64,000 nucleotides of DNA, from contig JAFEMH010004907.1 in NCBI GenBank assembly GCA_022495995.1, positions 1 through 64,000 of the forward strand, read 5' to 3'. The position numbers were made by a program, and so were the translations under genes. The notes under the pieces were generated by a model that saw nothing but the letters and a program-made list of their open reading frames with translations, did not search any database and had not been told where the DNA came from. Source of the DNA: Adenophora triphylla var. japonica (lineage: Eukaryota > Streptophyta > Magnoliopsida > Asterales > Campanulaceae). Shown in pieces: positions 10,506-52,419 of this stretch. How positions within the stretch are numbered: position 1 is the stretch's first letter; the number at the start of each line of letters is the position of its first letter.

Positions 10506-10547
10506 CCTTACAGTGTCGACCTCGCTCACTACTTCATCAAGGGAACC

Positions 10548-12985: not shown

Positions 12986-13017
12986 AGCAGTGAACTAAGG
13001 GTCCTGATCCGCAATTT

Positions 13018-15679: not shown

Positions 15680-15692
15680 GTCTCCCACTTGC
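15680..15692 (-). promoter_or_regulatory. Copia polypurine tract
   Basis: On the minus strand this reads GCAAGTGGGAGAC directly before the 3' LTR start TGTTAGTG, as expected for the plus-strand primer. Confidence 0.8.
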
Positions 15693-15693
15693 A

Positions 15694-17505: not shown

Positions 17506-17507
17506 TT

Positions 17508-19661: not shown

Positions 19662-20817
19662 TTATTCTACAAAAAGATATACATAAAATATGAACACATA
19701 TAAGTAAACATATCATATGAGAAGTATAATGCATTTGCATGAAATGCTCCCACTAAATTATACACCTTCAAATGCAAATAAGCATAATATACATTTAATG
19801 GGATAAGATCCAACTTTAATTTAATTTCAAGTTTGCTATGGCAAATCGCTCAAAACTAAATTAATTAGGTAGAAACATCAATCATATCACATATATGACT
19901 CTTAGATCTTTTATGAGATTTATTCAAGACATCATATGTCTAGGCATATTTTAATCTCATCTTATGCCTTGGGTCCAAAACCATTTTGATAACCCAATTA
20001 AGTCCATTCACTTTAAACGTATAGGAACCACCATTTCCTCATCTTGCTCGCATTCGAATAGAATCAAAGTACCTTGCTATGGCAAGCCCACCCAAAACTA
20101 TCCGAATGGTCTCAAGTGTTTTAATCATGAATTGGCATAAAGAACTTAAAAGTTAAATGAAGGTTCTTTAAAGTAGATTATAAGCATATCAGAAAAGATA
20201 GTCATAACTGTGCACCAGGTAAGTTCCCAGGAAGATAGGTGAGTCACAAGGACTACTTAAGTACCAAATCTCTCCTTCGTCAGAACTTTCCTAGACATGC
20301 ACAATCAGAAATCAGCTCTGATTTGACAACATAATCACTACCTTTTATAAACAATCAATTTCCTTTTAGATTTTGCGTTAATATGACTTGTTTCCATAAA
20401 TAATCATAAACCAAAATCTTAATGTTTCAATCTAAACATTCAGGAAATCATAACATAATGTTTCAACTAAACATCTAAGATTCTTAATATATAAGAACAC
20501 ATAATTCAAACATCGCAACAATTAATAAAATCACATTTTAATTAACTAATCATGCATAATCAATGAATTAATCTAGCATAGCCCTATAAAATTGATTTCC
20601 ATAAATCTATAGCATCCAGATTAATACATGAACACATCAGATTGTAAACACATTCATAGATTAGCACGATTGTTCAACAAACTGATTCTGCCCAGATTGG
20701 GCTAGAAGTGTCGCGTGACAGAAGCAGGTTCTGTCGCGTGACAGAAGATGACATTTTTTCAGATTTCCATAATTCAATTAATTCTAAATCACAGAGCAAT
20801 TAAATCATGCAAACGAC
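19662..20817 (-). other. Copia 5' leader, proximal part
   Basis: Noncoding, AT-rich leader between gag and the nested element. It contains two exact copies of CTGTCGCGTGACAGAAG-type words within 40 bp near 20706-20747 (one preceded by AGTG, one by TTCT). I find no ORF here. The distal part of the leader continues at 25515-25669. Confidence 0.75.
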
Positions 20818-22451
20818 TGATGGATGTGTATTTACCCATCCAAATGATGCACTTTTAGGCTTTCTTTGTGTTCGATTCCCGAGTTTTATGTATATTTGAT
20901 ATGGTTTGTGAGTATTTATTGAGTACAGGGTATAGAGCTGATTAAAGGTGGATTTTATGGCTAAAAAGTGCAAAAGGAATAAAGTGGAGCGGAGCAGAGA
21001 AGGGCAATAGTGAAATAAACGAGCTCTAAGGACTAAATGGGAAATATTGGAAAATTCAGGGACTAAATTGGAAATATGGAATTTTTGGACGAATTTAATT
21101 TATAAAAATTCGTGGGTTAAAATGAAAATAAAATCTCAAAGAGCGAAGCGCAAAAGAAGTCATTATAGTGGTTAAAGTACGACGAGAAAATCGCGGGACG
21201 AAACGAATAACAAAGGGTATCAATTTAGGGCCAAGGTTGGCCAAGCATGCTAGGGCCATTGCAAGGCATTTGGGGCCAAGGTTGGAAGATTTATAGGCCA
21301 TGGCTGAGAGTGGCCTAGGAAAGGTGGCCGGCCAGGAGGAAATTGAAGCTAGCAGTGGCCAAGGCTTGAGAAACACGGCCAAAGTTGCTGCCAACTAGGG
21401 CGACCGCGCCAATCAACAAGGGCGGCCGCGCTACAACCAAGGAAACGCCGGCCAAGTTTCTGTGCACTAGGGCTGGCGCTCTAACATCAATTGCGGCCGC
21501 GCTCCACCCGTAAAGCAGAAACAGTTTTACAGCAACAGGTTTACGTATCAATTGAAGGGTATTCACGTCTTTTCTCACCTTGGCCCATGATTTTTAACCT
21601 AGTCCCTATTTATAAGTCACAGCCACACGGCAGTTTTGGGAGGATATCATATATTATATTATTAGAGTTTTTATTATTTTGTTTTTCTTTAACAATTCAA
21701 TTGTGGAGAAGAACAATTCCGAATTCAGGTTTTTATTTTTTTGTAAATTATGAATAGCTAAATTTCTTAGATTTGTAGATTGGTTGGATCTTTATCCGGA
21801 TTTCTATGCAATAGTATTTTAATTCTTTCTATTTAATTCCTTCTAGTTCATTAATAGATTTTAATTTCTTGTTCTTAGATTCGAGACGTATGTTAAGATA
21901 CGAAATCATCATTGAATAATTGGGTATTTATTGAGCCATTAATTTGGGATTTTGATCCATAGACCATTATTGATTGAATAACTTTAATCGGGGCCGTAAT
22001 AAAACTGATCAAAGTTAGGTTATTTTATTCTGATGTTCTTAATGTATTCTTGGCATATTGTGAAACCGTAATAGACACTACAATATTAAAAAGAGTATTT
22101 AGGATTGTAATCCGGCCACATAACCGTGTCGATCCTAGCAAAAGTGAATGAACCCTAGAAGTTGAGTTGATGTTTTATAAGTAAAATTTTGCATAGAATG
22201 ATGGTGAAGTGAAATCCAATCTATGAATCTCTGGTCATAATTTGTTTTCTCGTTTATTTAGTTTTTGTTGTTTAATTTATGCTTTTAGTTCTCAATCAAA
22301 TCTATAAACTTTGGTTACTAAATTCACTGCGTTTACTTTACTTGTTTACCAACGAGTCTCTGTGGATTCGACCCCTGCAATTGCATACTGCTACACCGGT
22401 AGTGAGTATACTTGCTCGGTTTTTATTACAAGAGGGAGTTTTCCTCCATCA
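20818..22451 (+). repeat. 5' LTR of Athila 2 (1634 bp)
   Basis: Bounded by TGATGGATG and CCTCCATCA and followed by AGTTTT plus the primer site. It contains GCGACCGCGCC (21400-21410), GCGGCCGCGCT (21422-21432) and GCGGCCGCGCTCC (21493-21505), upstream of a TATA-like TATTTATA (21607-21614). The first ~110 bp include short repeats around 'GGACTAAA(T)TGGAAATAT'. Confidence 0.95.
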
Positions 22452-22457
22452 AGTTTT

Positions 22458-22475
22458 TGGCGCCGTTGCCGGGGA
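22458..22475 (+). promoter_or_regulatory. Primer-binding site of Athila 2 (tRNA-Asp)
   Basis: TGGCGCCGTTGCCGGGGA is a perfect complement of the plant tRNA-Asp 3' end, six bases after the LTR. Confidence 0.92.
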
Positions 22476-22509
22476 CTTGTTGCAAGTAAACAAGTAGGTT
22501 AGGTAGTGA

Positions 22510-23745
22510 ATGCAAGGTCGTCGTTCTTTGAAGCCTACATTGGTGCCATTGAATGACAACATAAATAGACTTAATAAAGCTAAAGGCACTAAACTTCTTG
22601 AGGAAGCATTTGAGGGGGATCCCCTCTTTAATCCCCTTTTCTCGGATTCAGACACTGAATCAGAACCCTCCACCACCGAGGTAGAGGAAGAGAAAGCCGA
22701 GATGGCAGAACCACCGGCACAAACAATGAATGATTTCCTTAGACCTCGGGTAGACACATCTACCTCTTGCATAGTGCTGTCCGATGCAGCCAAAAATCTA
22801 GAGGTCAAAGGACAATACTTTGCCATGTTGCCAAGCTTTCACGGATTGCCTGGTGAGGATGCACTTACGTTCCTTAAAGAATATATTATTGTTGTTTCTC
22901 AATTTTTGTTAAGACAGGGAGTGACTGAGGAGCAAATTAGACTGAAGTGCTTTCCTTACACTCTTAAGGGAGTGGCTAAAACATGGTTGATGATGCTTGC
23001 ACCGAGCAGCATCAGTACTTGGGCAGAATTGCAAGATGTGTTCCTTAAAAGATATTACCCACATCATCTGTTGGCTAGTTTTAGACAGAAGTTGATGACA
23101 TTTTCCCAAGATGTGGGGGAGACCTTTCATGAGGCATGGGAAAGATTTAATACAATGTTAATACAGTTTCCCCACCACAACTTCACACTACCCTCACTGA
23201 ACCAAGCCTTTTATGATGGCTTGAATGACAATGGTCAATCAATGGTTGACAATGCTGCTGGAGGCTTGATAGGAGCCAAGACCCCGGATGAGACTAAAGC
23301 TTTATACGAGATGTTGAGTGCTAATTCTCAACAAAAGAGTTTGAGGGGTAGAACAAGGGTGGTATTGGATTTGACTGCTACTGATAATCTTTCCAAGCAA
23401 ATTGCAGTCTTAAGTAGTAAATTTGATAAATTGACTGCCTGTGGCACTTCTGCTGGTGCCAATGTTATTACTGATTATTGTGCAAATTGTGGTTTATCAT
23501 CTCATGTTACTAATATGTGTTCAAGTGCAGCAAATTTCTCTTATCATACTGAACAGGCACATGCTTTCAATGGATACGGACAAAGGCCACCACCCCAAGG
23601 CAACCCATATGGTAACTACAATCCATGGGGTGGCCATCATAATCAGCAAGTGAAACCCCTTCATGTGCCACCACCTGGACAACATGGTAGTGCACCTTGG
23701 GAGATGGCAGTTCAGCAGTTAAGGATGGAGATGCAAAGAAAGTAA
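22510..23745 (+). CDS. gag of Athila 2 (411 aa), intact
   Basis: Structural Gag protein. Residues 1-70 are variable and acidic (SDSDTESEPSTTEVEEEKAE). Residues about 95-260 form the retrotransposon gag domain (FPYTLKGVAKTWL, LKRYYPHHL, FHEAWERFN and FYDGLND). A zinc knuckle CANCGLSSHVTNMC (CX2CX4HX4C) lies near residue 322. A Pro/Gly/Asn-rich tail follows. The frame is undamaged from the ATG 34 bp after the primer site to the stop. It could in principle be expressed and supply particles, but no RT is encoded in this copy. Confidence 0.9.
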   Translation: MQGRRSLKPTLVPLNDNINRLNKAKGTKLLEEAFEGDPLFNPLFSDSDTESEPSTTEVEEEKAEMAEPPAQTMNDFLRPRVDTSTSCIVLSDAAKNLEVKGQYFAMLPSFHGLPGEDALTFLKEYIIVVSQFLLRQGVTEEQIRLKCFPYTLKGVAKTWLMMLAPSSISTWAELQDVFLKRYYPHHLLASFRQKLMTFSQDVGETFHEAWERFNTMLIQFPHHNFTLPSLNQAFYDGLNDNGQSMVDNAAGGLIGAKTPDETKALYEMLSANSQQKSLRGRTRVVLDLTATDNLSKQIAVLSSKFDKLTACGTSAGANVITDYCANCGLSSHVTNMCSSAANFSYHTEQAHAFNGYGQRPPPQGNPYGNYNPWGGHHNQQVKPLHVPPPGQHGSAPWEMAVQQLRMEMQRK

Positions 23746-23773
23746 TGTAAATACGTATGCCGCGTTTGAAAAG

Positions 23774-24836
23774 ATGTGGCACACAAGTAGAGCAACTTGT
23801 GAAGGTTGCCCAAGAGTTGATGAAAGAGAAGAACCCACCTCGAGCAAGCAAAGTCAATCACAACAAAGGTGGGATGAAAGTGAGGAAATTGAGGAGGTAT
23901 TTCTTTCTTCCCTTGATAATTTTGAATGTGATAATAGTGATAATGTTAGTGAGGAAGAGGATGAGATGGGGGAGGTTCAATATGTATTTTCTGCATTAAA
24001 TTTAGAAACCCCTTCCCCCCAATGTTGTGAAAACCATACCCCAGAGAGGTGTGGAGTTTGAAAAGATTAAACATGTTCAAAAAGACCCCGGGTGTTTCAC
24101 TATCCCAATTTCGTTAGGGGGTCAAAATTTTAAAGGTTTGTTGGATCTTGGGGCAAGTGTCAATGTGATGCCCTTTCATGTTTTTAGAAGTTTGGGGGTA
24201 TGTGAGTTGAAACCACCCATGAGAGACTTGCAATTGGCGGATCTCTCAATTAAAAGACCCTTAGGGGTTATTGAAGGGGTGTTGGTTAAAATTGATAAAA
24301 TCATTATCCCCATTGACTTTTATGTGATGTGTATGGAGGGATCAAGTGAGGAACAACTGAAAACTCCCATTCTGCTTGGGAGACCATTTATGTTTGACAC
24401 TAAGGCCATCATTGATGTGTGTCAAGGGGTGGTGTCCTTGAGAGGTATGGGGGAAGAATGCAAGTTTTGTATGCTTGAAAATGATAAGAAACCCTCCCCC
24501 AAAGATGGTTTTGTAGGAGCCATAACTGATGTTCCAATTTTTAAAGATGATGTGAATGGATGTGAGAAAAGTGGGGATAATGCGGACGTTTGTCCCGTGG
24601 CTAGTAACACTAAAGCCGACCAATACTCTAGGAGTAACGGGTCGTATCACTCCCCACACGACTTCCATAAAGAGTCGATTCCATCACATTTACCACAAGG
24701 GCCTTCAAATTCGAGAGTTAGTGAGGAGAGTTATAGTGATTTATCTGATTCTATATTTTTAAATATTTTTGTGCATGATAACTCTCTTGATCTTGGTTGT
24801 GAGAATGGTGTTCTGCAGGTTGCAGAAAAAGATTGA
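23774..24836 (+). pseudogene. Athila 2 linker and aspartic protease
   Basis: An acidic linker in the frame 23774-24061 (EEIEEVFLSSLDNFECDNSDN) passes by a small frameshift near 24030 into the frame 24027-24836. This second frame has active-site D40-L-G-A-S followed by VNVMPFHVF, LQLADLSIKRPLGV, LLGRPFM and DVCQGVVSL. After the protease the frame goes on about 120 residues with no recognisable domain and stops at 24834. The RT expected next is absent. Confidence 0.85.
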
Positions 24837-24924
24837 GTTTGGGGGTGGAAACCCCAATAAAAAGAAAAGAAAGAGGGGTAAGCACAAGCGTAAAGTTTCA
24901 AAAATAAATGTGGCTTCACCCCTA

Positions 24925-25509
24925 CTTGTTCTTAGATTCGAGACGTATGTTAAGATACGAAATCATCATTGAATAATTGGGTATTTATTGAGCCATTAAT
25001 TTGGGATTTTGATCCATAGACCATTATTGATTGAATAACTTTAATCGGGGCCGTAATAGAAACTGATCAAAGTTAGGTTATTTTATTCTAATGTTCTTAA
25101 TGTATTCTTGGCATATTGTGAAACCGTAATAGACACTACAATATTAAAAAGAGTATTTAGGATTGTAATCCGGCCACATAACTGTGTCGATCCTAGCAAA
25201 AGTGAATGAACCCTAGAAGTTGAGTTGATGTTTTATAAGTAAAATTTTGCATAGAATGATGGTGAAGTGAAATCCAATCTATGAATCTCTGCTCATAATC
25301 TGTTTTCTCGTTTATTTAGTTTTTGTTATTTAATTTATGCTTTTAGTTCTCAATCAAATCTATAAACTTTGGTTACTAAATTCACTGCGTTTACTTTACT
25401 TGTTTACCAACGAGTCTCTGTGGATTCGACCCCTGCAATTGCATACTGCTACACCGGTAGTGAGTACACTTGCTCGGTTTTTATTACAAGAGGGAGTTTT
25501 CCTCCATCA
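24925..25509 (+). repeat. Truncated 3' LTR of Athila 2
   Basis: Corresponds to 21868-22451 of the 5' LTR with one extra base. Homology starts abruptly at CTTGTTCTTAG, and no polypurine tract precedes it. The first 1050 bp of the LTR are deleted together with the rest of the internal region. Confidence 0.95.
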
Positions 25510-25669
25510 ACGACTTTTAACAGATTTAATTCAATATCATTAGAACACGAATTAGGCATATTGTTATAAAAACAATTAATCTATCGCATACAAAATATGC
25601 AAAAGAACATATAAACGATTTTATATTACTTTTCTAGCATGTTAATTCAAACTTAATCATACGAACGGG

Positions 25670-25681
25670 GCTCTGATACCA
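25670..25681 (-). promoter_or_regulatory. Copia primer-binding site (initiator Met-tRNA)
   Basis: On the minus strand it reads TGGTATCAGAGC, one base after the 5' LTR end CCCAACA. This is the standard copia primer site. Confidence 0.95.
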
Positions 25682-25682
25682 C

Positions 25683-27039
25683 TGTTGGGTTTTACGGGTT
25701 CATGCGCAGCGGAATAAAGCATCAAATAACATAAAACCCAAGGAGCCTAGGATCCGTTCTATATAATTAACTTGAAAAACTATGAGATAGATGTAACCAA
25801 CCTTGAACACTTTCCGTTCTTGAGCTATCGAACGATTTGATTATGTGATTTCGAATCACAAACTTCGTTCTTCAACTTACTTGAACTCTAGGCCTTGATC
25901 GTTGAACGAGCGAAGACCCTCTTTCGGTATCCACACCTTTGAATGAATCCAAGAACAATTTCTTGAAGATTGCTAGATCCTATAAACCTTTGAATAATAT
26001 TGAGAATATGTTTGTGAATTTCTTTTGAGAATTTCGGCTAACATTCTAGGGTTGACAGACGTTCATATTTATACTACATTAGTATAGAATATGAGTCCTA
26101 ATCAAATTAGGAAAGGATTCTGTCAAACCGCCTCTGGGCCTGTTGTGTCGCACGACCATACACAGCACATGGCATGTTGTGTCGCACGGCCAAACAAGGC
26201 TGATGAGGAATTTCTCAATCATTCTTCCAATGGTTTAATCAAATTCATTCTAGTTGTGTGTGACCCAATAGGATTACATTATGTGGCAATGAGTTCGATC
26301 ATATCGACCCCCATAAGACATAAGCGGACTCTAGCAAGCCATTATGTCTACCCAAATAATGCAACGTAAGAGTTCACGTTTTCAATGGTACACTTCCATA
26401 TCTCCCTTTATCTCACGATGTTATATTGAACACAAGTCAAGGTCCTCGTCAACTTGTCTTTGTTCAATGCTTTCTCGATTCTTGAGTATAATGATAATTC
26501 CAATCACATTGGGGTACGGTCATACACTTTCATCATTATCACTCATCGAGGGGCCCAAGCTAAACATCTCTCTTTGAGGGACAAATTCCATCTTGACTTA
26601 TCATCCTTCCCAACATGATTCCGATCATGCCAAAGATAGCCTTTATAGATATCGTGTTAAGATATCGTTTGACTAAAATCAAACATGACTTTCATCATAT
26701 GTAAGGTCATGATAATCTCAGGTCTAGGGACTAAATGAAGTAACCTTATGAGATTTAATTATGACATTTGACCATGACATAAATCTCATGCGGGTCAAGT
26801 CCAGTCACTTGTTCTCTAACAAGTACCCATAATTTCAATGTGCATCTCTATGCATATAATCATCGTATGATTATCCATTGACAATTATACTAATTATTCT
26901 CTTAATAATTAGGGACGAAGATTATTATAAACAAATATACAAAACATATATAATAATCAAATTATAAACATCTCATATAATAGTAAATAATGTCAACACA
27001 TAAGTCTATCAATCATAGGCCTAGGGCATAACACTAACA
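25683..27039 (-). repeat. 5' LTR of copia (1357 bp), complete
   Basis: In sense it begins TGTTAGTGTTATG at 27039 and ends CCCAACA at 25683. A TATA-like TATAAATA lies on the minus strand at 26066-26073. Two copies of TTGTGTCGCACG(A/G)CC occur near 26144-26190, just upstream of the TATA in sense orientation. The target duplication on the right would begin at 27040 (CCTGC), but the other end of the element is truncated. Confidence 0.94.
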
Positions 27040-27055
27040 CCTGCTCCAGCCCGTA

Positions 27056-27979
27056 CTATCGCAGCACCAAGGATGGAATGTAGAAAGCAGTCTGGGATAA
27101 CCCCGGCACTCTGACAACCAGAAGACCCTCCTGAGCGGTCCGACAAGTTTGCAGCTTCCAATGAGGAACCCACCATCGTAAGTGATGCGTGCGGAGTCTG
27201 GCCATCCAGAGCTCCAGTTCAGCCTGATCGCCCCCTATCACCAGATGACGTCGAGAAAAGGACCAAGGGTCACAAGACACTAGCACCTCGGGCACCATCT
27301 GCAATTGCTCCCTCAACCATATAGTTAGCATAGTGGGACTCCCTCCCCACATGTATCGGCTGCCGGTCGCCATGCGACCTATGCCCAGGAACGTCTCGCC
27401 CAGGATCAAAGGCACGATGTCTCCCCCGTTCCGGCACTGCCTCACCAGGTCTAGTACACTGTGATGGCACACACCCAGGGACGTGAATGTGAACAAAGTA
27501 GCAATCACGTACAGAGCAAACGCGTCCCACACAAAAACGCTCCCCTCAACACCGGCAAATTTATCGGGCAGCCCCGAAATGTCGACATAATATGTGTTCA
27601 GTATTAGCATCCCGTATGCTTCTTCAGCTGAGATACCAAGCAAAGACACCAACTTCTCAACGGTGGCCATGCCGCCCGTCAAGGGAAGAACTAGCTGTTC
27701 CGTCTCAGGTCCTCCTAATACGGCCCGAAAATCTTCAAAGGTGGGCATAATCTCGTTGTACGAAAAGCTGTACATGTGCCTCCGTACGTCCCAGAAATGA
27801 GCCGCAGCTCTCAAAAGATCACAATCCGGTATGAGCTCCTTCAAAGCCCAAACGGATTTCATCCCGTAACAACCCTCGAAAAAACCCTTGCTTTGCCTCG
27901 TGTGGTGCCATACCCACGATTGGAAATTGTCCAAGTATCGCTCTTGCATCTGAGACGATAGCCTAGGAAATGGAGCCAT
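27056..27979 (-). pseudogene. Antisense PMD2 gene of Tat-A (plant-mobile-domain/DUF7745-like), 3' truncated
   Basis: Opposite in direction to Tat-A pol. From the ATG at 27979 (MAPFPRLSSQMQERYLDNF) it reads about 308 residues with no stop. The core LLRAAAHFWDVRRHMYSFSY followed by NEIMPTFEDFRAVLG is the signature of the plant mobile domain / DUF7745 group. The later part WRRHHLRWWVPHWKLQTC-like region is also kept in Tat-B. An upstream in-frame extension to 28195 exists, but Tat-B supports the 27979 start (its ATG at 52420 gives MAPF). The copia insertion cuts it at 27040, and a frameshift gives a stop at 27056. Family role: plant mobile domains occur in nuclear regulators and in transposons; the role here is unknown. 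Confidence 0.75.
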
Positions 27980-28504
27980 GAGAAGAGCAAAGAAAACCTT
28001 CAAGAATTTAAGAGAGAAATGCAGTGTTGGATCAAAAGCAAACGTGCTGTTTTCACAATTGCAAAAACTGAACTGCAATTTAAAACAACTGAAATTGAAT
28101 CCCTCCCACGGACTGTTTTCAAGTTGACTGGTCAACTCGAACCCAGCTGCCTCAGTTTGGAAACATTTCCAAACCATATCCAGTTCAAGCCTCATTTAAA
28201 CTACGTGCACCCATGGTTTAAATCAACCACGCCAACACCACTTCCGCCCCTGCTCGTGCAACAAAGGCAATTAATTAAATAACAGTGCATATAGACATAA
28301 ATTTTGACCAGTTCGAATTTTTGTGCATGTTTCATTATTATTTATTTTTGATCAACCTACTTGCTTATTTGCCAAAAATAAAAGTAGGTAATCACTAAAT
28401 AAATGTGCAAAATACAAGGTTTCGCCTCAAAGGCCCTTTCAAGTACAATTCAAATTGTTTGGACAATACACACATTTTGTCTAAAAATAAATCAAGAAAG
28501 AGGA

Positions 28505-31266
28505 CTACTCAAAGTCCTGCTCGTCATCCGAGCACTCGAAATACTGTCCCGCAGTAGCCGAATCCACCGAGGACAGGTAAAATCCAAATTTCTCAAGGCG
28601 GAAATACGAGAAAGGCTGCCTCTGCGCACGTGTCCCCGAGGACTCTCCCTGTTCGTGCCCCGAGAAAGAAGAGTGACGAGCTTCGAATCCCGCCGTCTCA
28701 CCGGAGAATTGGCCGAACCCCTTGGTAAAGTCTGCCCCACCAGCCGTGGAGGCAGACGAGTCTCTCGCTGCAGAAGGCCTAGATGGCATCGGCTCATGCA
28801 CAGCCGCACTCCTCCGGGAATTACACCGCAGGAACTCCACGAGTCTCCTGGCATAGTTGGCCCACCCATCCAAACGTCTCACGGCCTGGTTGTACGTACG
28901 ACCAGACACCTGCAAATCAGGAAATCCGTTAAAAGACAAACAGATAGCACAGATGCAACATTTGCAGAATGCTACTATCAAGTACGTAAAATCAAAACAC
29001 TCACCGAAGCATTGGGATCCACTCGTATTCGAGGCCTCGTCTCCTCCGGAATAGGGATCACCAACCGCCCGCGAGAACCATCAAGCCCTCATACGCCGCC
29101 CGAGCGAGGGAGCGGGTAGTCCCGGGGATATGCAGGGGCCCCTCGCCTCCTCGTGCAAAGACTGCGGCTCTCGCCCTCGTCCTCAGAAGATGTCATAGTC
29201 GGAACCCTCTATGATAAACTCGGTATAGAACACGCCCGTCCGTACCGCTCCGCATCCTCCATCGCACGCCAAAGGATACTGCATGTGTGGAGGCGGGTCC
29301 ATCGGAACCAAAGGAAGGGACCCCGGACCATGCTGATAGGTCACCCTCTCTCCCAAGTACATCGCGTCACAATAAAGTCCCACCAGCAGCTTCCACCGAC
29401 GTGTGACCTCCCTAGCAGACTGGACCACAAAAACATTAATCTGGTTCCAACAAGTCAGCTGGATCCGCCCGAAAAACTCTCAGCTCATGGCCAGAGACAC
29501 CTCCTCGTAAGTCAGTCGAGTACCCTCCCTTGACGTTGCCGGCTTCTTCGCCGCCTTCTGCCAAATCAACATGGCAGGGAACAAGGACTTATACTCCTCC
29601 TTGGTCTCCCACCTCTGCGGGTGGAACACCTCCAAAAATCACACCTGTCAAGCACATGGAAAGTTATGTCAGCTACAAAGCAGATACATACGAGTACAAA
29701 ATGAGACAAGGAAGAGAAAAAGACGGGAACTTACATCCAAAGTGAACACAAAGCAGCATAAGGTGTTCTCCTCGCCCCGCGAGAACCTATCCAAAGCATG
29801 GTAGAGCTCGCCGCCCAAACCTCCCCCATGCAAACCCTCTCACGGCATCCAGATCAGTCAGCGAGCCGAGCAGAGGAAAGTGACATGCCGTATCAGCGGT
29901 AGGGAATAGGGTAGCTGACAAAGCAAACCATAAGAACCCTCGAGCCAGACGCACTGCGGTCATCCTCGGAGGCCCCTCCAAATATGCATTAATACCCCTC
30001 CTCAGATGAGCCTCCATCGGCCCATACCGATTACCCAAGCCCCTGGCATCGGTAATATCAAAACCCAGCAGATCCGACAACTGCCCCGGGGTGTAGCCAT
30101 CCACCCACACAAGTGTGTTGCCCCAGAATGGCAACCCCGTAATAGCCGCAAAGTCGCGGAGTCACGGGCCTCCCCACCTGAAGTGAAACGTGTGGGTCGT
30201 GTCCCACCAGTACTCGCTCAGGGCAACGTGCAAGACCCTCGCCCTCTGCGTCGAAGCCACCGCGGCTACTGCGCTGATGAATCCAGCCAAACCGGAGTCA
30301 ACCACAAACTAATGTGGACTCCTCTCTCCGTCCCGAGCATCGTCTGGGATATCTCCCACAGCGCTCTAACTACCTCAAAGGCTCCCCTGCTCTTCAAGTT
30401 ACGGACATTAACCGGCCCTCGCCCCTGCAGGTGAACACGGCAAAAGTACGTTAATACAGAAACAACATCTACAGAATGTACAAACGCATATCGAAATGAT
30501 GAAACACAGAAACGGTTCAGTTTCAAAAACCCGTTCATTAACGGTTCATTTTCCTAAAATATGTCCATCCCAGTTGGAATATTAACGGTCCAAAATCCCA
30601 AAAAGGTGCAAAACATTTCGAAAAATCCGTCGAACCCGAAACTTTCAAAACATTTCGAAAAATCCGTCGAACCCGAAACTTTCAAAACATTTCGAAAAAT
30701 CCGTCGAACTCGGAACTTTCAAAACCTTTCGAAAACTCCGTCGAATTCGGAACTTTCAAAACATTTCGAAAAATCCGTCGAATTCGGAACTTTCAAAACA
30801 TTTCGAAAAATCCGTCGAATTCGGAACTTTCAAAACATTTCGAACATTTCGAAAAATTACTCCGTCCCAAATTAAACTTACTTTAATTTCGGAAAACACC
30901 CCTAGACATGGAATTTTGCAACCAAAATTTTTATGTTATCTACCCATGATGTCAATTGAACTAAACTCTAGTCAATTTCGACAAAGGCACATAGCAAAGT
31001 CAAAAGCCCCAATTCGGGCACCAAGAACCCTAACTCATTTCTAATCAAATTCCTAAAATTTAAAGAATGCACATTCTGAAAATTAACGGAATTTAGAGGA
31101 TGTTTACCTGTCTTTCGATCCCTTCCTTGGATTTGTGAGTGTCCCGAGCCGGATAAAACTCCGTTGGATCCACGGGAAGAGCGGTGGTTCGAATGGTCCT
31201 CACCAACCTCGCTTTTTCGTTGTCGATCCTCCTATGACGAGCCCTTGGTTCCAAACCGGCATCCAT
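28505..31266 (-). pseudogene. Antisense PMD1 gene of Tat-A, four predicted exons
   Basis: Predicted exons on minus: 31266-31108 (159 nt, MDAGLEPRARHRR), 30424-29735, 29644-29006 and 28909-28505 (stop). Introns start GTAAAC, GTAAGT and GTGAGT and end CTGCAG, GACAG and TGCAG. The Tat-B copy has a 159-nt exon 1 and introns of 94 and 96 bp against 90 and 96 bp here. Exon 2 encodes EYWWDTTHTFHFRWG, DFAAITGLPFWGN and ARGFLWFALSATLFP, which resemble a plant mobile domain (WD..THTF.F..GE, I.GLP, LFP). The C-terminus ends in an acidic FECSDDEQDFE. At least one in-frame stop in exon 2 (near 30171) and shifts in exon 3 make this copy nonfunctional. Splicing is inferred from sequence only. Confidence 0.65.
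30605..30850. repeat. 37-bp minisatellite in intron 1 of PMD1 (Tat-A)
   Basis: Six 37-bp units built on ATTTCGAAAAATCCGTCGAA lie between predicted exons 1 and 2. The equivalent in Tat-B (49625-49825) has five units, alternating 36 and 39 bp. Confidence 0.9.
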
Positions 31267-31529
31267 GATGATTTTCCCTCAAAGATTTCGAACAAAACTC
31301 GCGAAATGAGAAGAATTTTTCTCTCCTTTCTCTCTTTTCCTCGCCTGAAAGTATGGAGAAATGGACCAGTTTGCGTCGGCCTGTTCCTGATTTGAACCTG
31401 GTCAAATCCCGCCTCCCACGGACTCTTTTTACCGAAAAGATTCCTTGCCACTTTGGCCCCTCAGCTTTCCACAATTTCATTTTTACCCCTTTTGGCCCCC
31501 AAAAGTGTAAAATTTCCCCAAGTTAGACC

Positions 31530-31890
31530 TTTCTAACACCCCGTCTCCAGATGTTAAATTTTTCGTTAGTTTTCACTAACGTTCGTCTCCAGACGTTAAA
31601 TTTCAAACCGTCTTCGAACGTTAAATCACGTTTTCGTCTCCAGACGTTAAATTTCCTGCTAGTTTTCACTAACGTTTCGTCTCCAGACGTTAAATCTCAA
31701 ACCGTCTTCGGACGTTAAATCACATTCCCGTCTCCAGACGTTAAATTTCCCGTTAGTTTTCACTAACGTTTCGTCTCCAAACGTTAAATCCCAAACCATC
31801 TTCGGACGTTAAATCACAATTCCGTCTCCAGATGTTAAATTTCCCGTTAGTTTTCACTAACGTTCGTCTCCAGACGTTAAATCCCAATCC
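31530..31890. repeat. Tandem array CGTCTCCAGACGTTAAAT (Tat-A)
   Basis: Nine or so units contain CGTCTCCAGACGTTAAAT and TTAGTTTTCACTAACG. AACGT/ACGTT half-sites recur in both directions, so single units can fold back. The same unit occurs in Tat-B at 48580-48910. Confidence 0.9.
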
Positions 31891-32384
31891 GCACTTCTCG
31901 GATCAAGGTAAGCCCGCACAACAATCCTCTCGCCATCTTCGTAAGTCTCATTGGTTTTCACCAACATTTACTTCCCCGGCCGTCATCATAAGCCCGACCA
32001 TCCCAATTTAGCGGCCATCGAGGTAAGCCCGCACAACAATCCCTCTTCAGCCATCATTGTAAGCCCGAACATTCCTCCCCAGCAGGATCCTAAGACCATC
32101 CGTCTAAGAAGAAACGTCAATCAATCCCCCCAATTCCTAACTGGCTTTATTAGAACTCTGGGCACTTTTCCCCAGCAATGTGTCAGTCTCTCCCGAGACC
32201 ACATCCCGTTCCTAACCCCGTCATTAGAACGTCAATCCTTCCGTGTTGTTATAACATCCATTTGACGCGAACGTTCCCGTCATTAGAACGTCAATCCTTC
32301 CGTGTTGTCATAAGTCCAGCACCCAAGGCACGAACGCCTTACAAAATCAATCTCAAGGCACGAACGTCTTCATCTCAGGACAAA

Positions 32385-32975
32385 CAAATCCTCGTAATCT
32401 CGGTCTGAGGTGCCACACGCCCTCGAAAGTATCAGTAATCTCGGTCTGAGGCACCACACGCCCTCGTATGTTTCAGTAACCTCGGTCTTAGGCGCCACAC
32501 GCCCTCAAAAGTATCAGTAATCTCGGTCTGAGGCACCACACGCCCTCGTATGTTTCAGTAACCTCGGTCTGAGGTGCCACACGCCCTCAAAAGTATCAGT
32601 AATCTCGGTCTGAGGCGCCACACGCCCTCGAAAGTATCAGTAATCTCGGTCTGAGGTGCCACACGTCCTCGTATGTTTCAGTAATCTCGGTCTGAGGCAC
32701 CACATGCCCTCGAAAGTATCAGTAATCTCGGTCTGAGGTGCCACACGCCCTCGAAAGTATCAGTAATCTCAATCTGAGGCGCCACACGCCCTCGTATGTT
32801 TCGCAATCTGCCTCGAGGCGCCACACGCCTCGAATGTTTCAAGAATCTCGCCCGAGGCGCCACACGCCCTCGAATGTCCTCGTAATCTCGGTCTGAGGCG
32901 CCACACGCCCTCGAAGGTTTCAGTAATCTCGGTCTGAGGCGCCACACGCCCTCGAAAGTTTCAGTAATCTTAGGT
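32385..32975. repeat. 41-bp tandem array (Tat-A)
   Basis: About 14 units of a 41-bp repeat containing AATCTCGGTCTGAGGCGCCA followed by CACGCCCTCGAA. It lies about 0.3 kb before the 3' LTR. Tat-B has only a remnant near 47550-47575. The open frames seen here on either strand are repeat translations. Confidence 0.9.
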
Positions 32976-33065
32976 TCAGACGCCTCACAATAGTCTCCAT
33001 TCAGGTTCAGACGCCCCACAATGGTCTCACTTAGGTTCAGACGCCTCACAACAGTCTCGCTTAGG
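32970..33065. repeat. Short array TTAGGTTCAGACGCC
   Basis: Three units of about 30 bp (TTAGGTTCAGACGCCTCACA with variants) immediately follow the 41-bp array. Tat-B has related text (AGACTGTTAGGAGGCGTCT) near 47450-47535. Confidence 0.8.
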
Positions 33066-33251
33066 TCAAGGTCCCCACGCGCGGTCCTTGCACCTATGAA
33101 CTACGATCGGCTTGATTCCCGCTCGGGATACGTAGGAATCCTTCCGCTAATGGTCCAGCCAGCTGACCTCTCAGGTCTCTTCAAGTAAGGCATCCCTTGA
33201 TTTGGATCCTTATCTTTTTCAACGACCCCACTTCCTTCGAAAATGATGTCG

Positions 33252-33264
33252 CTGAGGGGCTAAC
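33252..33264 (+). promoter_or_regulatory. Tat-A polypurine tract
   Basis: CTGAGGGGCTAAC directly precedes the LTR start TGTAAGTACCC. Tat-B has the complement (GTTAGCCCCTC) next to its LTR at 47242. Confidence 0.75.
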
Positions 33265-35420
33265 TGTAAGTACCCAAATCCGGATCGTCAAAATCCGTTA
33301 AAAGTTAACCAGAATCCGTTAACTGGCCCGCTCCAAGTTAACCGAAACCCGTTAAGCTCCCCGTTCTCAAGCCAACAAGATGTCCCGGGACTGCCCCGTG
33401 CATCCCAACGTCAAAGCGTACTCAACACACGTCGTCACACGTAAAAGTACAGCTTTTCCTGAAAAATGCACTTTCCAGCACTTTTCGGGGGCGTTTCGGA
33501 CATTTTTCGGACAGTTATTTAAAAAATGGACAAAACCGAGAATAATGGCACAAAAATCCATGCCCTGGTGAGTCACAGGGGCACGTGGCACGCATGCCAT
33601 AGCCCCCTAGCCAACATCAATCAGATTTCAGAGTGAAAAGACCAAAATACCCCTGAGATGTTGTCACAGTCCGTCCGAATCTTTTTGTGCAAAACAGATT
33701 GCCAAGAAGTCATTCCAATTTCAAAAATCCCACAAAACCCCCTGAAATTCAGGTTAAGTCCGTCCGGACTCTTTTGCAAATTTACCCTATAAATACAGAG
33801 GGCTGTCAAACATTTGAGAGGAGGAAAAAATCATCCATTTTTCACCACAGCCACGGCCCAAACCCTTTTCACCCTCTCCCGAGCCCCGTTTTGCCTCGAT
33901 TTGTGTGAAAACTTCGTATTTCAACCAAACACGAACCAAACAACCTCAAAACACCGTTCCAAACACTAAATCGTATCCCGTATATGCCTCCCGAGCCAAA
34001 AGAGTCAACCCCTAGCCATAGGTAACACTCTCTCTCCCTAAACACTCGTTCCATCTCGGTTTACGCGCCAGTCGCTACAACCGTTTTGGACGAAAGTCAT
34101 TAAAATGTAGACGTCACCGTCAACGGGGTCCGATACGATTTAGTCCAAGATCCTCTTCTCATCCCGTAAGAGAAGTAATCTCGGGTTAAAACGGCATTCC
34201 GGCCCCGTTCCTTTACTTTTAATGTCATTTACAATTCCGGATCGTTCGATCCGTTGAACATCATTTACTTTACGCAACTTTATAGTCCGAACCATTTGGT
34301 TTGTGATAGTCATTTAACGGTCGGGATCGTTTGATCCGTTGAATGCTATTTACTTAATGCACCTTTAAAATCCAGGTCCTTTGATTCCGTTGATAACGCA
34401 TTTTAAATAATGTCATTTACAAGTCTGAGCCATTTGGCTCATGATAGTATTTACTTATCAAAGTCCGAGTCGCAAAACGATTTGTTGATCGCATATCATT
34501 TAATGCTTTTTTCCTGTAAAATCGCTAACAATGTAATGCCCGGTTCAAAACCGGAGTTCGACATTCGAACTCTCTTTCAAAACGCGCAAAATGACGTTTG
34601 GCATCCAAACGATCATCTTCAAACTCAAAATCTGACATTTGACATTCAAATCTCATTTAATGCTTTTTTCCCGTAAAATCGCTAACAATGAAATGCCCGG
34701 CTCAAAACCGGAGTTCGACATTCGAACTCTCTTTCAAAACGCGCAAAGTGACATTTGGTATCCAAATGATCATCTTTAAACTCAAAAAATCCAACGTTTG
34801 ACATTCAAACGCTCCTTTCTTAAAATTCAACATTTGACACTTAAGTTAACAGTTCAAAATCATCACTCGCACCACTTTTTCCTAAAAACACCAAAACCGA
34901 CGTTTGTCATTCAAACGCTCGCCTTTTCCAAAAAGAATTACAAAATCAACGTTTGACGTTCAAACCAAGATTAAGCTAGTCATTCAAGCCCCCATTTTCA
35001 AAATGTAAACAGACACACACACACACACATATTCGAGAAAAGTAGAAAGACTCGTCATACGAGGCGTTTCGGGTGATCTCAAAATACTCTTCCCGAAACG
35101 TAACGTGACCTCCGAACCTAACAATCTCTGGTACTAAAAAAGCCTTTTCCTTGTTTTCGCTACCAATAAAAATGACACCCCGTTTCAAAGCCTTTTTCTA
35201 AGTTTTTGCTACCAATAAAAACGACACCCCGTTTCAAAGCCTTTTTCTATGTTTTTGCTACCAATAAAAATGACACCCATTTTCACTAAGCCGTTTTTCA
35301 ACGTTTGGGCTCAAAATACAAAATCGCGTGGCGACTCCTCTCCTTCCCGAAAAAGAGGTCTCAAACACCAATCCGCGAAAGACAACCGCGTTCGCCGCGC
35401 GCGAATCCCGGGTAATTTCA
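33265..35420 (+). repeat. 3' LTR of Tat-A (2156 bp)
   Basis: Begins TGTAAGTACCCAAATC and ends GGGTAATTTCA. The inverted counterpart is 45247-47241. It has a TATA box TATAAATA at 33788-33795, repeated blocks around (ATT)CAAACG with AACGTTTGAC (34540-34970), an (AC)n run near 35010-35024, and three copies of a block with TTTTTGCTACCAATAAAAA (35150-35275). The flank starts CTCGG, the possible target duplication; the other end is outside the window. Confidence 0.92.
33788..33795 (+). promoter_or_regulatory. TATA box of Tat-A LTR
   Basis: TATAAATA, conserved in Tat-B as the complement at 46714-46721. Confidence 0.65.
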
Positions 35421-49199: not shown

Positions 49200-51867
49200 A
49201 TGGAGGGTGAAGGAGGACCAATGGCTCGCCACGGAAGGACCGACGACGAAAGAACTCGATTGGTTCGGACCATTCGAACCACCACTCTTCCATTGAATCC
49301 GGCGGAGTTTTATCCGGCGAGGGACCGCCACAACTCCAAGGGAGGGATCGAAAGACACGTAAGTTCCCTACAAATTCCATTAATTTCAAGAATGTGCATT
49401 CTTTAAATGTTAGAAATTTGTTAGGAATTTACTTAGGGATTTTGGTGCCCGATTTGGGGCTTTTGACTTTGCTATGAATCGTTGTCGAAATTGACTAGGA
49501 CGTAGTTCAATTGACATCATGGGTAGATAACATAAAAATTTTGGTTGCAAAATTCCATGTCTAAATGCATTTTCCAAAATTAAAGTAGCTTTAATTCGGG
49601 ACGGAGCGAAATTTTCGAAAAATTCGAAAGAATTTGAAAGTTCCGGATTCGACGGAGTTTTCGAAATGATTTTGAAAGTTCCGGATTCGACGGAGTTTTC
49701 GAAAGATTTTGAAAGTTCCGGATTCGACGGAGTTTTCGAAATGATTTTGAAAGTTCCGGATTCGACGGAGTTTTCGAAAGATTTTGAAAGTTCCGGATTC
49801 GACGGAGTTTTCGAAATGATTTTGAATATACGTAGGAAATGAATGAGAACCGTATCTGCATTGCATCCTTTTGACATGCGTTGTTGCATTTTGTTGACGT
49901 TGCTTCGTCTTGTTTGTCTGCGAGGGGACAGGATGGTTGATACCCACAACCGTAAGAGTCGGGGTGCCTTTGAGGCGCAAGGCATTGTGGGGCCTTATCC
50001 GGACGTGGCCCGAGAGGGAGAGAGGAGTCCACGACAACGGTGATTGACTCAGGAGCCATTTGGCCCAGGTTTGCTCCAGTCTTGTATCAGGCTGCCCGGC
50101 AGTGATACTGCCGAGCGAGTCCATGTATGTCGCGAGTGGCGAAATGCCGGTGGGATCAAACCACGCTTTCCATTTCGAGATGGGGAGCGGCGGTGACTCC
50201 CACAGATTTCTTTGCCTATCAGCCCGGGTTGCCGACTTATGGCAACGCGCGGCTTGGTGTGGAGTCGATGGTTACACCCCGGAGCGGTTATGCAGGAACC
50301 TTTGGGGTTTTGATATTACCGATGCCGGGGAGCTTAGGCATTCGGTACGAGGCCGATGGAGCATCACGAGGCGGGTGTCGCCGATTATCTGGCCGGGTCC
50401 TTGAGGATGACCGCGGAGCATCCGGCTCGAGGGTTCCTTTGGTTTGCGCCGTCGCCGACCTTGTTCCCGACTTCCGACACGTCTTGTCACTTCCCTCTCG
50501 CTCGGTCGCCGATGCATCCGGATGCCGTGAGGGGTTTGCGTGGGGGAGGCTGGGCGGCCGAGCTCTACCATTCCCTGGACCCAGAGTTCTCGCTGGGGAG
50601 AGGAGCACTCATTTAGGCTGCTTTACACTGTCTTGGATGTAAGTTTACGTGCTTTTTCTTTTCCTTGCCTCTTTTATGTACTCGTATGTATACGCTTTCA
50701 GTAGGCGACATAACTTTCCATTCTCTTGGCAGTGCAGTGCTACGAGGTGTTCGATCACGAGCTTGGGACGTCGAGGCCGTGCGGGTCCCTTTGTTCCCTG
50801 CCTTGCTAGTTTAGCGAGAAGAAGGCGAAGAGGGCGGTCTCTTCGAGGGTTGGCACTCGAGTGTCGTACGAGGAGATATCTCTGGCGCCGAACCCAGAGT
50901 TCTCAGAGAGGATCCGGGCCGACTGGTGGAAGCAGTGTTTGATCATGTCGCGGTGCGAGATTTCCCGTGAGACTACACGGCGGCGGAAGCTCTGGTGGGA
51001 CTTCACCTGCGACGCCATGTATCCGGGGGGAGAGGGTGACTCCCGTCGGCGTAGGCGGTCTCTTCCATTGGCCGGCTGGATCCTCCTCTGCATTACATGC
51101 GGCATCCCCACGGGAGATGCCGATGGATGAGAGCTGGAGGGATACCTTCGGGGTGTGTACTTCATCTAGAGTACATCATGCGGGGGCCGCCTATGATGTT
51201 TTCTTGAGATGAGGGCGAGAGCCCGCGGGTGCGGCATAGGGAGGGCGAGGTCCACAGAGGTCCTCGACATTTTCTGTCCCACGAGCTAGAGCTAGCGTAC
51301 GAGGCTGGGCGGTTCGCGCGGGCGACTTGTGATCCAGCTCCCGGCGGAGCCGAGACCACGATACGGGCGGACCCCAATGCTTCGGTGAGCATCTTTTTGA
51401 TTTTACGCATTTGATAGTAGCATTACGCACATGATGCATCTGTACTTTCTGTTCGCTTTCGTGATTTTCTGGTTCGCGAGTATGCGGCCATACGTACAAT
51501 GAGGCCGTAGAGGTGGTGGGACGGAGTGAGTCCGCCTACGCCCGGGAGGCTCGTGGAGTTTATGCGGTGCGGTTCCGGAGGAGCGTGGACGTCGCGATCG
51601 GGGGCCGTCTAGGCCGAGGGGTTCGCTGCTCCCACGGTGGTGGGAGGACTTCACGCGGGGGTTTGGCCGGTTCGCGGGCGGAGCAGGCTGGATTTGGAGC
51701 TCCTTCTTACGCGCACTCGGGCGCGAGAGAGAGTCCTCGAGTTTGCGTACTCCAGGAGGCCCTTTGCCTATTCCGATTTGGAGGAGTTCGGCGAGTTCTG
51801 TTTGCGGCAATTCGGCGGCGGCGGAGCGGTACGTCGAGTGTACGGATGACAAGCGGGACTCGAGTAG
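49200..51867 (+). pseudogene. Antisense PMD1 gene of Tat-B, four predicted exons
   Basis: Predicted exons: 49200-49358 (159 nt, MEGEGGPMARHGRTDDERTR), 49925-50638, 50733-51384 and 51481-51867. Donors GTAAGT (49359), GTAAGT (50639) and GTGAGC (51385). The acceptors at 49924 and 51480 read CGAG where Tat-A has CAG. Exon 1 keeps LVRTIRTTTLPLNPAEFYPA. Exon 2 keeps ITDAG and ARGFLWFAPSPTLFPTSDTS. Exon 3 keeps VSYEEISLAPNPEFSERIRA. Several frameshifts break the frames relative to Tat-A, mostly one to two bases. Conservation of exon length and splice sites in two diverged copies supports a real spliced gene in the ancestral element. Confidence 0.6.
49620..49830. repeat. Minisatellite in PMD1 intron 1 (Tat-B)
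   Basis: Five units containing TTCCGGATTCGACGGAGTTT, spaced 36 or 39 bp apart, corresponding to the 37-bp array of Tat-A at 30605-30850. Confidence 0.9.
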
Positions 51868-52419
51868 TCCCCTTTTCTTGCTTTCTTTCTTTTTTTGTTT
51901 AGACAAAATGCATGTATTTGTCGGGAACAAATTTTGATTTGAGATGTATTTGCAAAAGGCGCCAGGTAGAGGCGGGAACTGTACTTCCATATTTATTTTG
52001 TGATCACCTTCGGTTATTTTCGGCAAATAAGCAAATAGGTTAATCAAAAATAAATAAAAAGGAGAAATGCATTAAAAATTGAACGGAGTCAAAAATTAAG
52101 CATGTATTCACTAAATTTTAATTATTTGCCTTGTTGCACGAGCCGGGCGGAAGGGATATTGTCATTTGTTAAATGAAATCGAGCGAGCACGCGAGATTTC
52201 ATAAGGGTGAACAGGGCATGGTTTGGAAATGTTTCCAACTTTAAAGCAGTAGGCTGCAGAGTTGACAAGTCAAGCTGCGGGAAGTCCCAGGACTTGGAAA
52301 TGAATTTCCCGATTCTTTAAATTGCAGGTTTCAGCTTTGCAATTTGTAAGAAGCTACCGCATTGCTTTGCTCATTAAGTGAGTTCTTTTCCATTTCTTAA
52401 GGTTTTCTTCACCTTCGAA
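51868..52419. other. Spacer between PMD1 and PMD2 in Tat-B
   Basis: About 550 bp, AT-rich in the middle, equivalent to 27980-28504 in Tat-A. It holds the presumed end of PMD1 and promoter of PMD2. CGGGCGGAAGGGATATTGTC and a TTGCACGAG block are shared between copies. No clear TATA box stands out. Confidence 0.5.

Follow-up and report, generated by a model that had tools for sequence, protein, structure and literature searches.

Two antisense plant mobile domain genes, one apparently intron-bearing, in Tat-type retrotransposons of Adenophora triphylla var. japonica

The locus described here raises the question of what two antisense genes lying beyond the integrase of a plant retrotransposon encode, whether one of them is spliced, and what they might do for the element. 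The window, as the whole analysed stretch is hereafter called, comprises 64,000 nucleotides of Adenophora triphylla var. japonica (positions 1 to 64,000 of contig JAFEMH010004907.1, assembly GCA_022495995.1). It contains two Tat-type Ty3/gypsy elements, Tat-A and Tat-B, which are mutually inverted and each carry partial deletions; in alignment Tat-A (9376-14586 plus pieces of 27038-35400) is colinear with inverted Tat-B (59766-45278). On the forward strand of Tat-A (9376-14586), Pfam domain matches gave the order PR, a G-patch-like domain (weak match), RT (RVT_1), RNase H (RT_RNaseH_2, 12422-12892, E 1.5e-27), a second RNase H or aRH (12994-13458; RVT_3, E 2.2e-21, and RNase_H, E 9.6e-9) and integrase (rve, from 13839). 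The aRH places Tat-A in the Tat lineage, and its location between the RNase H (from 12422) and the integrase is, according to PMC6317226, what defines the angiosperm Tat clades Ogre and Retand. The Tat-B polyprotein region lies on the reverse strand (54564-59766) and, by BLAST, shares 84% identity with Tat-A 9376-14586. In Tat-A the integrase is now separated from the antisense genes by nested insertions (14587-27037), with loss of the 3' part of the nearer gene; this interval holds two LTR pairs (14708-15353/26344-26989 and 21868-22452/24925-25510) and a copia pol (16101-19566). Ogre elements are recognized by their clade in an RT-RH-INT phylogeny, a PBS to tRNA-Arg, and an intron separating the GAG-PROT and RT ORFs. 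The host element here is probably a high-copy Tat-lineage Ty3/gypsy element of the Ogre type. The 5' LTR and PBS of Tat-A and Tat-B fall outside the window, and the content of plant mobile domain (PMD) genes is at most compatible with Ogre.

Past the integrase and antisense to pol, both elements carry the same two genes, hereafter PMD1 and PMD2. That these are two PMD-type accessory genes, oriented against pol and located between the integrase and the 3' end, is nearly certain. A preliminary description of the locus had proposed such a pair in each element, and this was confirmed by the colinear alignment and by 20 genome copies fetched by their PMD1 5' end, among which all four PMD1 exons were found in 15 and the PMD2 block in 14. 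The arrangement recurs far above chance level, and integrase, aRH, RNase H and RT followed beyond PMD2 on the opposite strand in two of three extended copies.

PMD1 reads as four exons separated by three phase-0 introns. On the reverse strand of Tat-A, exon 1 (31108-31266) begins with an ATG; as the preliminary description held, it spans 159 nt in both elements, and in both its frame is open and a GT donor comes next. It is followed by intron 1 (30425-31107; 683 nt, GT...AG, GC 0.36, with 37-bp tandem repeats), exon 2 (29735-30424), which contains stops and frameshifts, with PF10536 matches in the read-through and, in two siblings, in this exon by itself, intron 2 (29645-29734; 90 nt, phase 0), which falls within the PMD domain at about profile position 176 of 347, exon 3 (29005-29644), which is broken in this copy, intron 3 (28910-29004; 95 nt, phase 0) and an open exon 4 of 134 codons plus stop (28505-28909). 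The 525 nt between PMD1 and PMD2 (27980-28504, same strand) hold one AATAAA, at 28346. PMD1-B lies on the forward strand (49200-51869) and has many indels, with exon 1 at 49200-49358, an intron 1 of about 566 nt, intron 2 at 50639-50732 (94 nt) and intron 3 at 51385-51480 (96 nt). The intron lengths first given, 90/94 and 96/96, stand except for intron 3 of Tat-A. The GT and AG borders reported at matching sites are present on all introns of both copies, although the acceptors of introns 1 and 3 in PMD1-B read CGAG, not CAG. GC content in both copies is 0.36-0.41 in introns versus 0.53-0.64 in exons. With its GT...AG borders, AT-rich introns and a frame kept over the junctions, PMD1 has the features of a U2-type gene at the sequence level. 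Stops and frameshifts occur in PMD1 of both window copies, and some may be sequence error. No TATA pattern was found upstream of PMD1 in either element. A motif common to the PMD1 and PMD2 upstream regions scored 32 in Tat-A (0/200 shuffles) and 26, in a different stretch, in Tat-B (2/200). Within intron 1, a 61-nt block identical in both elements (3/5000 shuffles) was rejected as a functional element, with 2.1% differences against 1.6% in its flanks and an exact match in 6 of 20 siblings. A sense ORF across the same intron (30586-31044) had no meaningful match and lies mostly inside the 37-bp repeat.

The exon-intron layout was kept in the 15 complete copies. Modal lengths were 159 nt for exon 1 (159 columns across the 21 rows of the copy alignment), 699 for exon 2 (6/15 copies), 648 for exon 3 (8/15), 90 for intron 2 and 95 for intron 3. 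At uncorrected alignment edges, GT was found at donors 1, 2 and 3 in 15, 15 and 14 of the 15 copies, and AG at acceptors 1, 2 and 3 in 12, 14 and 11. None of the 15 has a fully open spliced frame, each carrying at least one stop or frameshift. Intron 2 occupies exactly the site and phase of an intron in another PMD family of this genome (L050), which makes it probable that PMD1 was taken up in DNA form, with intron 2 at least already present. From such sequence features PMD1 appears likely to be truly spliced. The introns could instead be unspliced, AT-rich spacers between short separate ORFs, a reading to which the highly variable length of intron 1 (540-2574 nt among the 15 copies) and the lack of any Pfam match for exon 3 pieces by themselves would lend themselves; this is very improbable, however, given three introns all in phase 0, a sharp GC drop at their borders, an intron at the same site in another PMD family, and a read-through PMD match that crosses the intron 2 junction, whereas that of exon 2 alone stops there.

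The identity of the two proteins was judged from Pfam scores at curated cut-offs of 34.9 bits for PF10536 and 26 bits for PF24924 (DUF7745). The window copy of PMD1, read through with X, matched PF10536 at 52.5 bits (profile 12-286), and exon 2 alone of the two siblings in which it is uninterrupted scored 75.4 and 78.4 bits, ending at profile 175/176. Single pieces of the window copy gave no PF10536 match in the Pfam scan, nor did exon 3 pieces of one sibling, scanned alone, match any Pfam family. By these profile matches PMD1 is a genuine member of the plant mobile domain family. The window copy of PMD2 scored 22.8 bits for DUF7745, below cut-off, and had no PF10536 match; its relative P0005 (50% identity over 99%) exceeded both cut-offs (PF10536 36.7, DUF7745 31.3), P0007 exceeded that of DUF7745 (28.9) and fell below that of PF10536 (15), and P0006 and P0001 were below both. 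The proposed PMD/DUF7745-like identity is accordingly direct for PMD1, as PF10536, and comes for PMD2 through P0005; as far as profiles can tell, PMD2 is a diverged PMD/DUF7745-like protein. Both genes are called PMD because of these Pfam scores, and they are far diverged from one another: relatives P0002 and P0005 share 23% over 136 aa by blastp (E 0.026), and when two small alignments were compared as profiles no relation was detected. The antisense pieces scanned, which did not include exon 1 by itself, had no match to PF04195 (TRP28), and the Pfam scans of PMD1 and PMD2 returned no DNA-binding or enzymatic family. A PDB sequence search gave no match below E 0.3 and so no solved relative; two structure predictions were unusable (mean pLDDT 32.7 and 32.4), and no relatives were found in viral_contigs or genome_contigs.

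PMD2 is a single exon, 499 aa long in open loci. PMD2-A (27056-27979, reverse strand) is present where the preliminary description put it, as a truncated frame of 307 aa rather than a full gene; homology between Tat-A and Tat-B stops at 27038. PMD2-B (forward strand, 52420-53900, end approximate) has many indels and begins as described, and its end, first set at 53580, moves to about 53.9 kb: tblastn of P0005 and P0006 extends to 53854, across a basic C-terminal tail at 53792-53854. This tail is conserved in all four open loci, and the protein is likely nuclear. Complete PMD2 frames numbered 0 of 13 in the sample chosen by the PMD1 5' end (longest 287 aa). An uninterrupted 499-aa frame was present in four of seven other loci chosen by PMD2; the list from which they came was ordered by similarity to the PMD2 protein and is hence biased toward open frames. 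Counted by eye, 63 of the best-scoring 129 PMD2 matches listed, the window copy included, are free of stops.

Selection was assessed first between Tat-A and Tat-B, for which pol gave an omega of 0.21 and a dS between the two families of about 0.37. At the first alignment setting omega was 0.32 for PMD1 (CI 0.23-0.43; other two frames 0.97 and 1.00) and 0.28 for PMD2 (CI 0.18-0.43; other two frames 0.83 and 1.18), with 0.35 and 0.37, and 0.29 and 0.30, respectively, at the other two settings; in the PMD1 value, two pieces of exon 2 overlap by 39 nt, read in a different frame in each. Without CG codons the values were lower (PMD1 0.24-0.30, PMD2 0.23-0.26). On the opposite strand they were higher than in the coding frame (PMD2 0.41-1.12, PMD1 0.69-1.05), and for this reason a 238-aa sense ORF opposite PMD1 exon 4 (28403-29119), which has no Pfam match, was set aside. 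Within PMD1, constraint was weak in exon 3 (0.53, CI 0.30-0.94). In the opening part of exon 2, read in its own frame, it was not significant (0.59, CI 0.19-1.92); for the per-exon values the exon 2 start was placed one base off, and the whole-gene value uses the corrected frame. Among the four open PMD2 loci pN/pS was 0.16 over residues 1-307; over residues 308-499, which lie outside the query, it was 0.36 (other frames there 0.66 and 0.83). In young copies, shared variants were compared with a spectrum-matched null by shuffling: the ratio was 0.44 for PMD2 (0/3000), a weaker 0.67 for PMD1 (4/3000) and a neutral 0.86 for the intergenic region (1104/3000), with no constraint on PMD1 exon 4 among these variants (0.91, 618/1500). 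Single-copy variants were likewise below the null (0.75 and 0.73), so the split into shared and single variants does not cleanly separate pre- from post-insertion changes. Both proteins have been under past purifying selection. The suggested selection for spliced antisense expression goes further than the results, which show selection at the protein level together with kept splice borders; no fully open PMD1 occurred among the 15 copies. The interpretation first put forward is partly supported as a whole, the checks that could be run being mostly favourable.

Among the host PMD proteins, MAIN and MAIL1 interact and are required for transposon silencing (PMC5418596, PMC7156037, PMC8616336). In the explanation that we find reasonably probable as a whole, PMD1 and PMD2 are selected antisense accessory PMD genes, PMD1 is spliced, and the role is anti-silencing. 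Antisense-strand promoters inside the element would drive Pol II transcription of both genes, the PMD1 mRNA would be spliced, and the introns would survive the copying cycle unremoved because the genomic RNA carries them in reverse. The likeliest site of action would be the nucleus, where the proteins would compete with the host silencing factors MAIN and MAIL1, or imitate them, and the element would thereby escape silencing. Taken by itself, the anti-silencing function is tentative; published speculation is what speaks for it. A more elaborate version, which we regard as quite doubtful, makes the pair a two-protein decoy from two anciently separate PMD branches, a heteromer that would imitate or poison MAIN-MAIL1 and lift silencing, with PMD1 derived from an intron-bearing host gene and the antisense place kept since it allows a fully spliced, separately regulated gene.

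Somewhat unlikely, though possible, is that the proteins work for the cycle of the element itself, in controlling transcription, bringing the integration complex into the nucleus or choosing targets, and not in anti-silencing. This has been suggested for the antisense TRP28 proteins of Retand, the gene23 protein of Grande is nuclear (PMC11963269, PMC7264820), and the basic tail of PMD2 in every open locus would suit it, whereas the failure of the Pfam scans to return a DNA-binding or enzymatic family does not. A further reading, rather unlikely, holds that the antisense RNA is what matters, pairing with genomic RNA and feeding siRNA or phasiRNA that tunes or silences the element, with PMD coding a by-product; it has been considered where plant LTR elements carry antisense ORFs (PMC7264820), and tea has 175 phasiRNA loci at its PMD genes (PMC10673657), yet constraint specific to the coding frame in both genes would be unexpected for a pure RNA function, and the stop-free frames among the best-scoring PMD2 matches listed also argue against it. 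That the pair are captured host genes in decay, functionless for the element, is disfavoured and improbable: the disrupted frames of both window copies and all 15 PMD1 copies and the missing complete PMD2 frames in the PMD1-chosen sample stand against a pair common to families with a pol dS of about 0.37, present in 14-15 of 20 copies and with A-B omega near 0.3.

Parts of this picture are already published. Plant mobile domain proteins are encoded by Gypsy elements, and 57% of Ogre elements contain PF10536 (PMC5418596, PMC6317226); PMD1 and PMD2 are likewise element-encoded PMD proteins; the accessible text of those papers mentions neither a PMD pair per element nor PMD introns. Extra antisense ORFs in Tat-clade elements, invoked in the preliminary description, are indeed on record (PMC11963269, PMC7264820): those of Retand, Grande and RIRE2 (aORF-3R) are also antisense and sit between pol and the 3' LTR in a long, often tandem-repeated region. 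However, 97% of Retand clusters encode TRP28 (PF04195) (PMC11963269), and here PF10536 is found instead. The claim that introns can persist in a retrotransposon only if antisense was too strong, since in Ogre a sense intron lies between PROT and RT and is kept through partial splicing (PMC6317226). Both cases involve an intron inside a Tat retrotransposon, but the Ogre intron is sense and partly spliced, whereas those of PMD1 are antisense, so that splicing of the genomic RNA does not affect them. The PMD1/PMD2 pair was not described in the accessible text of the literature found on plant mobile domain, antisense and gypsy, and DUF7745 was not found in any paper by the search. The intron-bearing pair looks new, although PMD pairs or introns may already feature in Steinbauerova 2011 (Genetica), the key paper on extra ORFs in Tat elements.

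Host MAIN, MAIL1 and MAIL2 (PMD-C) share their domain family with PMD1 and PMD2, but the latter two are genes of a high-copy transposon, and PMD2 has diverged strongly. The mechanism of the PMD silencing pathway is unsolved, and whether Gypsy or genic PMD came first is undecided (Ikeda 2017, PMC5418596). An element of high copy number whose two PMD genes have been under selection, one of them with an intron at a site that another PMD family shares, offers a handle on this question of origin, in which intron positions can help to root the capture, and its proteins lend themselves to direct tests with MAIN, MAIL1 and PP7L. Antisense placement would also give a retrotransposon a way to hold on to a gene with several introns.

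Self-comparison of the window revealed plant transposons nested within one another. Among them are two partly deleted copies of a Tat-type Ty3/gypsy element in opposite orientations: Tat-A, comprising 9376-14586 and pieces of 27038-35400, is split by nested insertions, and Tat-B occupies 59766-45278 on the minus strand, inverted relative to Tat-A. BLAST identity between the copies was 84% over PR-RT-RH-aRH-INT and 71% over the region of the plant mobile domain (PMD) genes. A Pfam scan placed a second RNase H (aRH) between RH and integrase; dual RNase H is the defining mark of the Tat lineage, and this position matches that of the angiosperm clades Ogre and Retand in Neumann 2019 (PMC6317226). 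Neither gag nor a 5' LTR was recognised for either copy inside the 64-kb window. A weak G-patch domain (10104-10502; 19.0 bits, cut-off 22) was seen between the Tat-A protease and RT. An Athila-type element at 1-9373 has LTRs (1-1588 and 7787-9373) that are 97% identical and a PF03078 ATHILA ORF-1 domain within 5072-6379. A small nested element (22510-23745) carries, opposite its gag ORF, an Rfam match to snoR71, a plant C/D-box snoRNA (23077-23183, minus strand; 41.2 bits, cut-off 40). On the minus strand of 60-64 kb, past the end of A-B homology at 59766, lies broken sequence that is protease-like by eye and perhaps represents a second Tat-type element; the four pieces of it that were scanned gave no Pfam matches.

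Beyond integrase, and antisense to pol, PMD2 comes first and PMD1 next, at 27056..27979 and 28505..31266 (minus strand) in Tat-A and at 52420..~53900 and 49200..51869 (plus strand) in Tat-B. PMD1-A consists of exon 1 (159 nt), intron 1 (683 nt, with 37-bp tandem repeats inside), exon 2, intron 2 (90 nt), exon 3, intron 3 (95 nt) and exon 4. All introns are phase 0 with GT...AG borders, and their GC content is 0.36-0.40 versus 0.53-0.58 in the exons. Stops and frameshifts interrupt this copy, and its single pieces matched no Pfam family. With X in place of each lesion, exons 2 and 3 together matched the PMD profile PF10536 (52.5 bits, cut-off 34.9) over profile positions 12-286, beyond the intron 2 junction. 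Uninterrupted exon 2 alone from two sibling PMD1 copies scored 75.4 and 78.4 bits; two pieces of exon 3 from one sibling had no Pfam match. All three database matches listed were almond PMD proteins. Within intron 1, Tat-A (30903-30963) and Tat-B (49505-49565) share 61 nt without a difference in a region about 86% identical; among 20 sibling copies the conservation of this block does not exceed that of its flanks.

PMD2 is a single exon, and its copy in Tat-A encodes 307 aa with a sub-threshold match to DUF7745 (22.8 bits, cut-off 26). Since four of seven other loci of the genome have an uninterrupted frame of 499 aa, ending in a conserved basic tail, PMD2-A is truncated. Four database proteins are related to it. 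One of 497 aa (P0005), 50% identical across 99% of the query, exceeded the cut-offs of both PF10536 (36.7) and DUF7745 (31.3); another (P0007) exceeded that of DUF7745 only, and the remaining two (P0001 and P0006) fell below both.

The 2.48-Gb assembly was searched with exon 1 and the first half of intron 1. The best 40 of 2886 candidates were 96-100% identical to the Tat-A query, and the best 40 of 2789 were 99-100% identical to that of Tat-B. With PMD2-A protein, the best 129 of 59651 candidates were 86-93% identical besides the query itself; these totals are candidates rather than confirmed copies. The PMD stretch was sampled from the first 20 non-window matches listed for the Tat-A query, and the sample therefore favours copies that resemble Tat-A at the 5' end of PMD1. 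All four PMD1 exons were present in 15 of the 20 copies and the PMD2 block in 14. Modal lengths among the 15 were 159 nt for exon 1 (14/15), 699 nt for exon 2 (6/15), 648 nt for exon 3 (8/15), 90 nt for intron 2 (10/15) and 95 nt for intron 3 (8/15). None of the 15 had a fully open spliced PMD1 frame; in two, exons 1-3 when joined contained just a single stop, and exon 3 of one of these also changes frame. PMD2 frames ran 13-287 aa from the start in the 13 sampled copies with a mapped start, so that none of these 13, picked through the PMD1 5' end, was complete. Integrase, aRH, RH and RT followed PMD2 on the opposite strand in two of three extended copies, and no pol was found in the 4 kb fetched for the third.

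Base-calling or assembly error may account for some of the lesions in the window copies, given the indels in Tat-B and in Tat-A exon 3. Within 48900-51000, the GC-rich exons of Tat-B differ from three sibling loci (L063-L065) by a great number of small indels; BLAST identity was 83.6-85.9%, and the comparison with L063 had 85 gap openings and 126 mismatches across 1466 columns. This indel excess resembles sequence error or some unusual local process. The adjoining exon 1 and intron 1 were 99-100% identical to L063 and L065; the loci had been picked through this very stretch, and near-identity nonetheless continues past the query. Tat-A exon 3 had seven indel runs versus a median of one and a maximum of 17 in 15 other copies.

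Elsewhere in the genome, many PMD matches break off at about profile position 181. In one family (L050) a phase 0 GT...AG intron separates GGFLTIIQ from LWAWERL, and at the same place PMD1 siblings have CCFVFALD or CCFMFALD before VWFLEVF, with exon 2 ending at PF10536 profile 175/176. This agreement in site and phase suggests that intron 2 is an old PMD intron. A locus of the same kind (L049) has the donor and no clear AG acceptor there. Tat pol was not found within 7 kb of either locus (contigs C4461 and C6166); each has a copia gag or pol fragment beside the PMD. Uninterrupted PMD genes also exist in the genome, because eight loci (L001-L008) matched over 295-347 positions without a stop. 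Contigs C2537, C739 and C3696 each hold several long open PMD frames (464-840 aa), in clusters that look like tandemly duplicated genes.

Between Tat-A and Tat-B, dN/dS (omega) in the coding frame was 0.32 for PMD1 (400 codons, CI 0.23-0.43) and 0.28 for PMD2 (237 codons, CI 0.18-0.43), versus 0.83-1.18 in the other frames; pol gave 0.21. Two alternative alignment settings gave 0.35-0.37 and 0.29-0.30, respectively, and both values fell when CG-containing codons were left out. Within PMD1, omega was 0.28 in exon 1, 0.18 in mid exon 2, 0.53 in exon 3 and 0.27 in exon 4; the first part of exon 2, read in its own frame over 28 codons, gave a non-significant 0.59. Young copies were compared with a null that preserves the mutation spectrum. 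Shared variants gave 0.44 for PMD2 (0/3000), 0.67 for PMD1 (4/3000), 0.86 for the intergenic stretch (1104/3000) and 0.91 for PMD1 exon 4 alone (618/1500); single-copy variants gave 0.73 and 0.75 for the two genes and 1.01 for the intergenic stretch. The four open PMD2 loci gave 0.16 in the query part, a value biased by how matches were picked, and 0.36 in residues 308-499, outside the query. These ratios point clearly to constraint on PMD2; for PMD1 the signal is clear across the A-B divergence and weak in recent time.

PMD in Gypsy elements, Tat antisense ORFs and host PMDs in silencing are already known. The portions of the literature compared, a set without Steinbauerova 2011 (the main paper on Tat extra ORFs), do not describe the tandem PMD pair, its introns, the common intron site or copy-level selection. 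The architecture of the gene pair, its PMD (PMD1) and PMD/DUF7745-like (PMD2) homology and the constraint on it are established; beyond these, Pol II would transcribe the genes antisense from a start inside the element, the PMD1 transcript would be spliced, and both proteins would be nuclear. The introns would escape splicing in genomic RNA because the genes sit antisense. The PMD proteins may regulate the element itself. Alternatively, function may lie in the RNA, via siRNA, and not in protein. Interference of the PMD proteins with host PMD silencing factors is favoured here; the idea that PMDs may counter silencing appears for MULE-borne PMDs in PMC5418596 and for transposons in general in PMC8616336. 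The latter also reports that the host silencing factors MAIN and MAIL1 interact, and the two diverged PMD proteins of one element could mirror this pair, an idea that we add.
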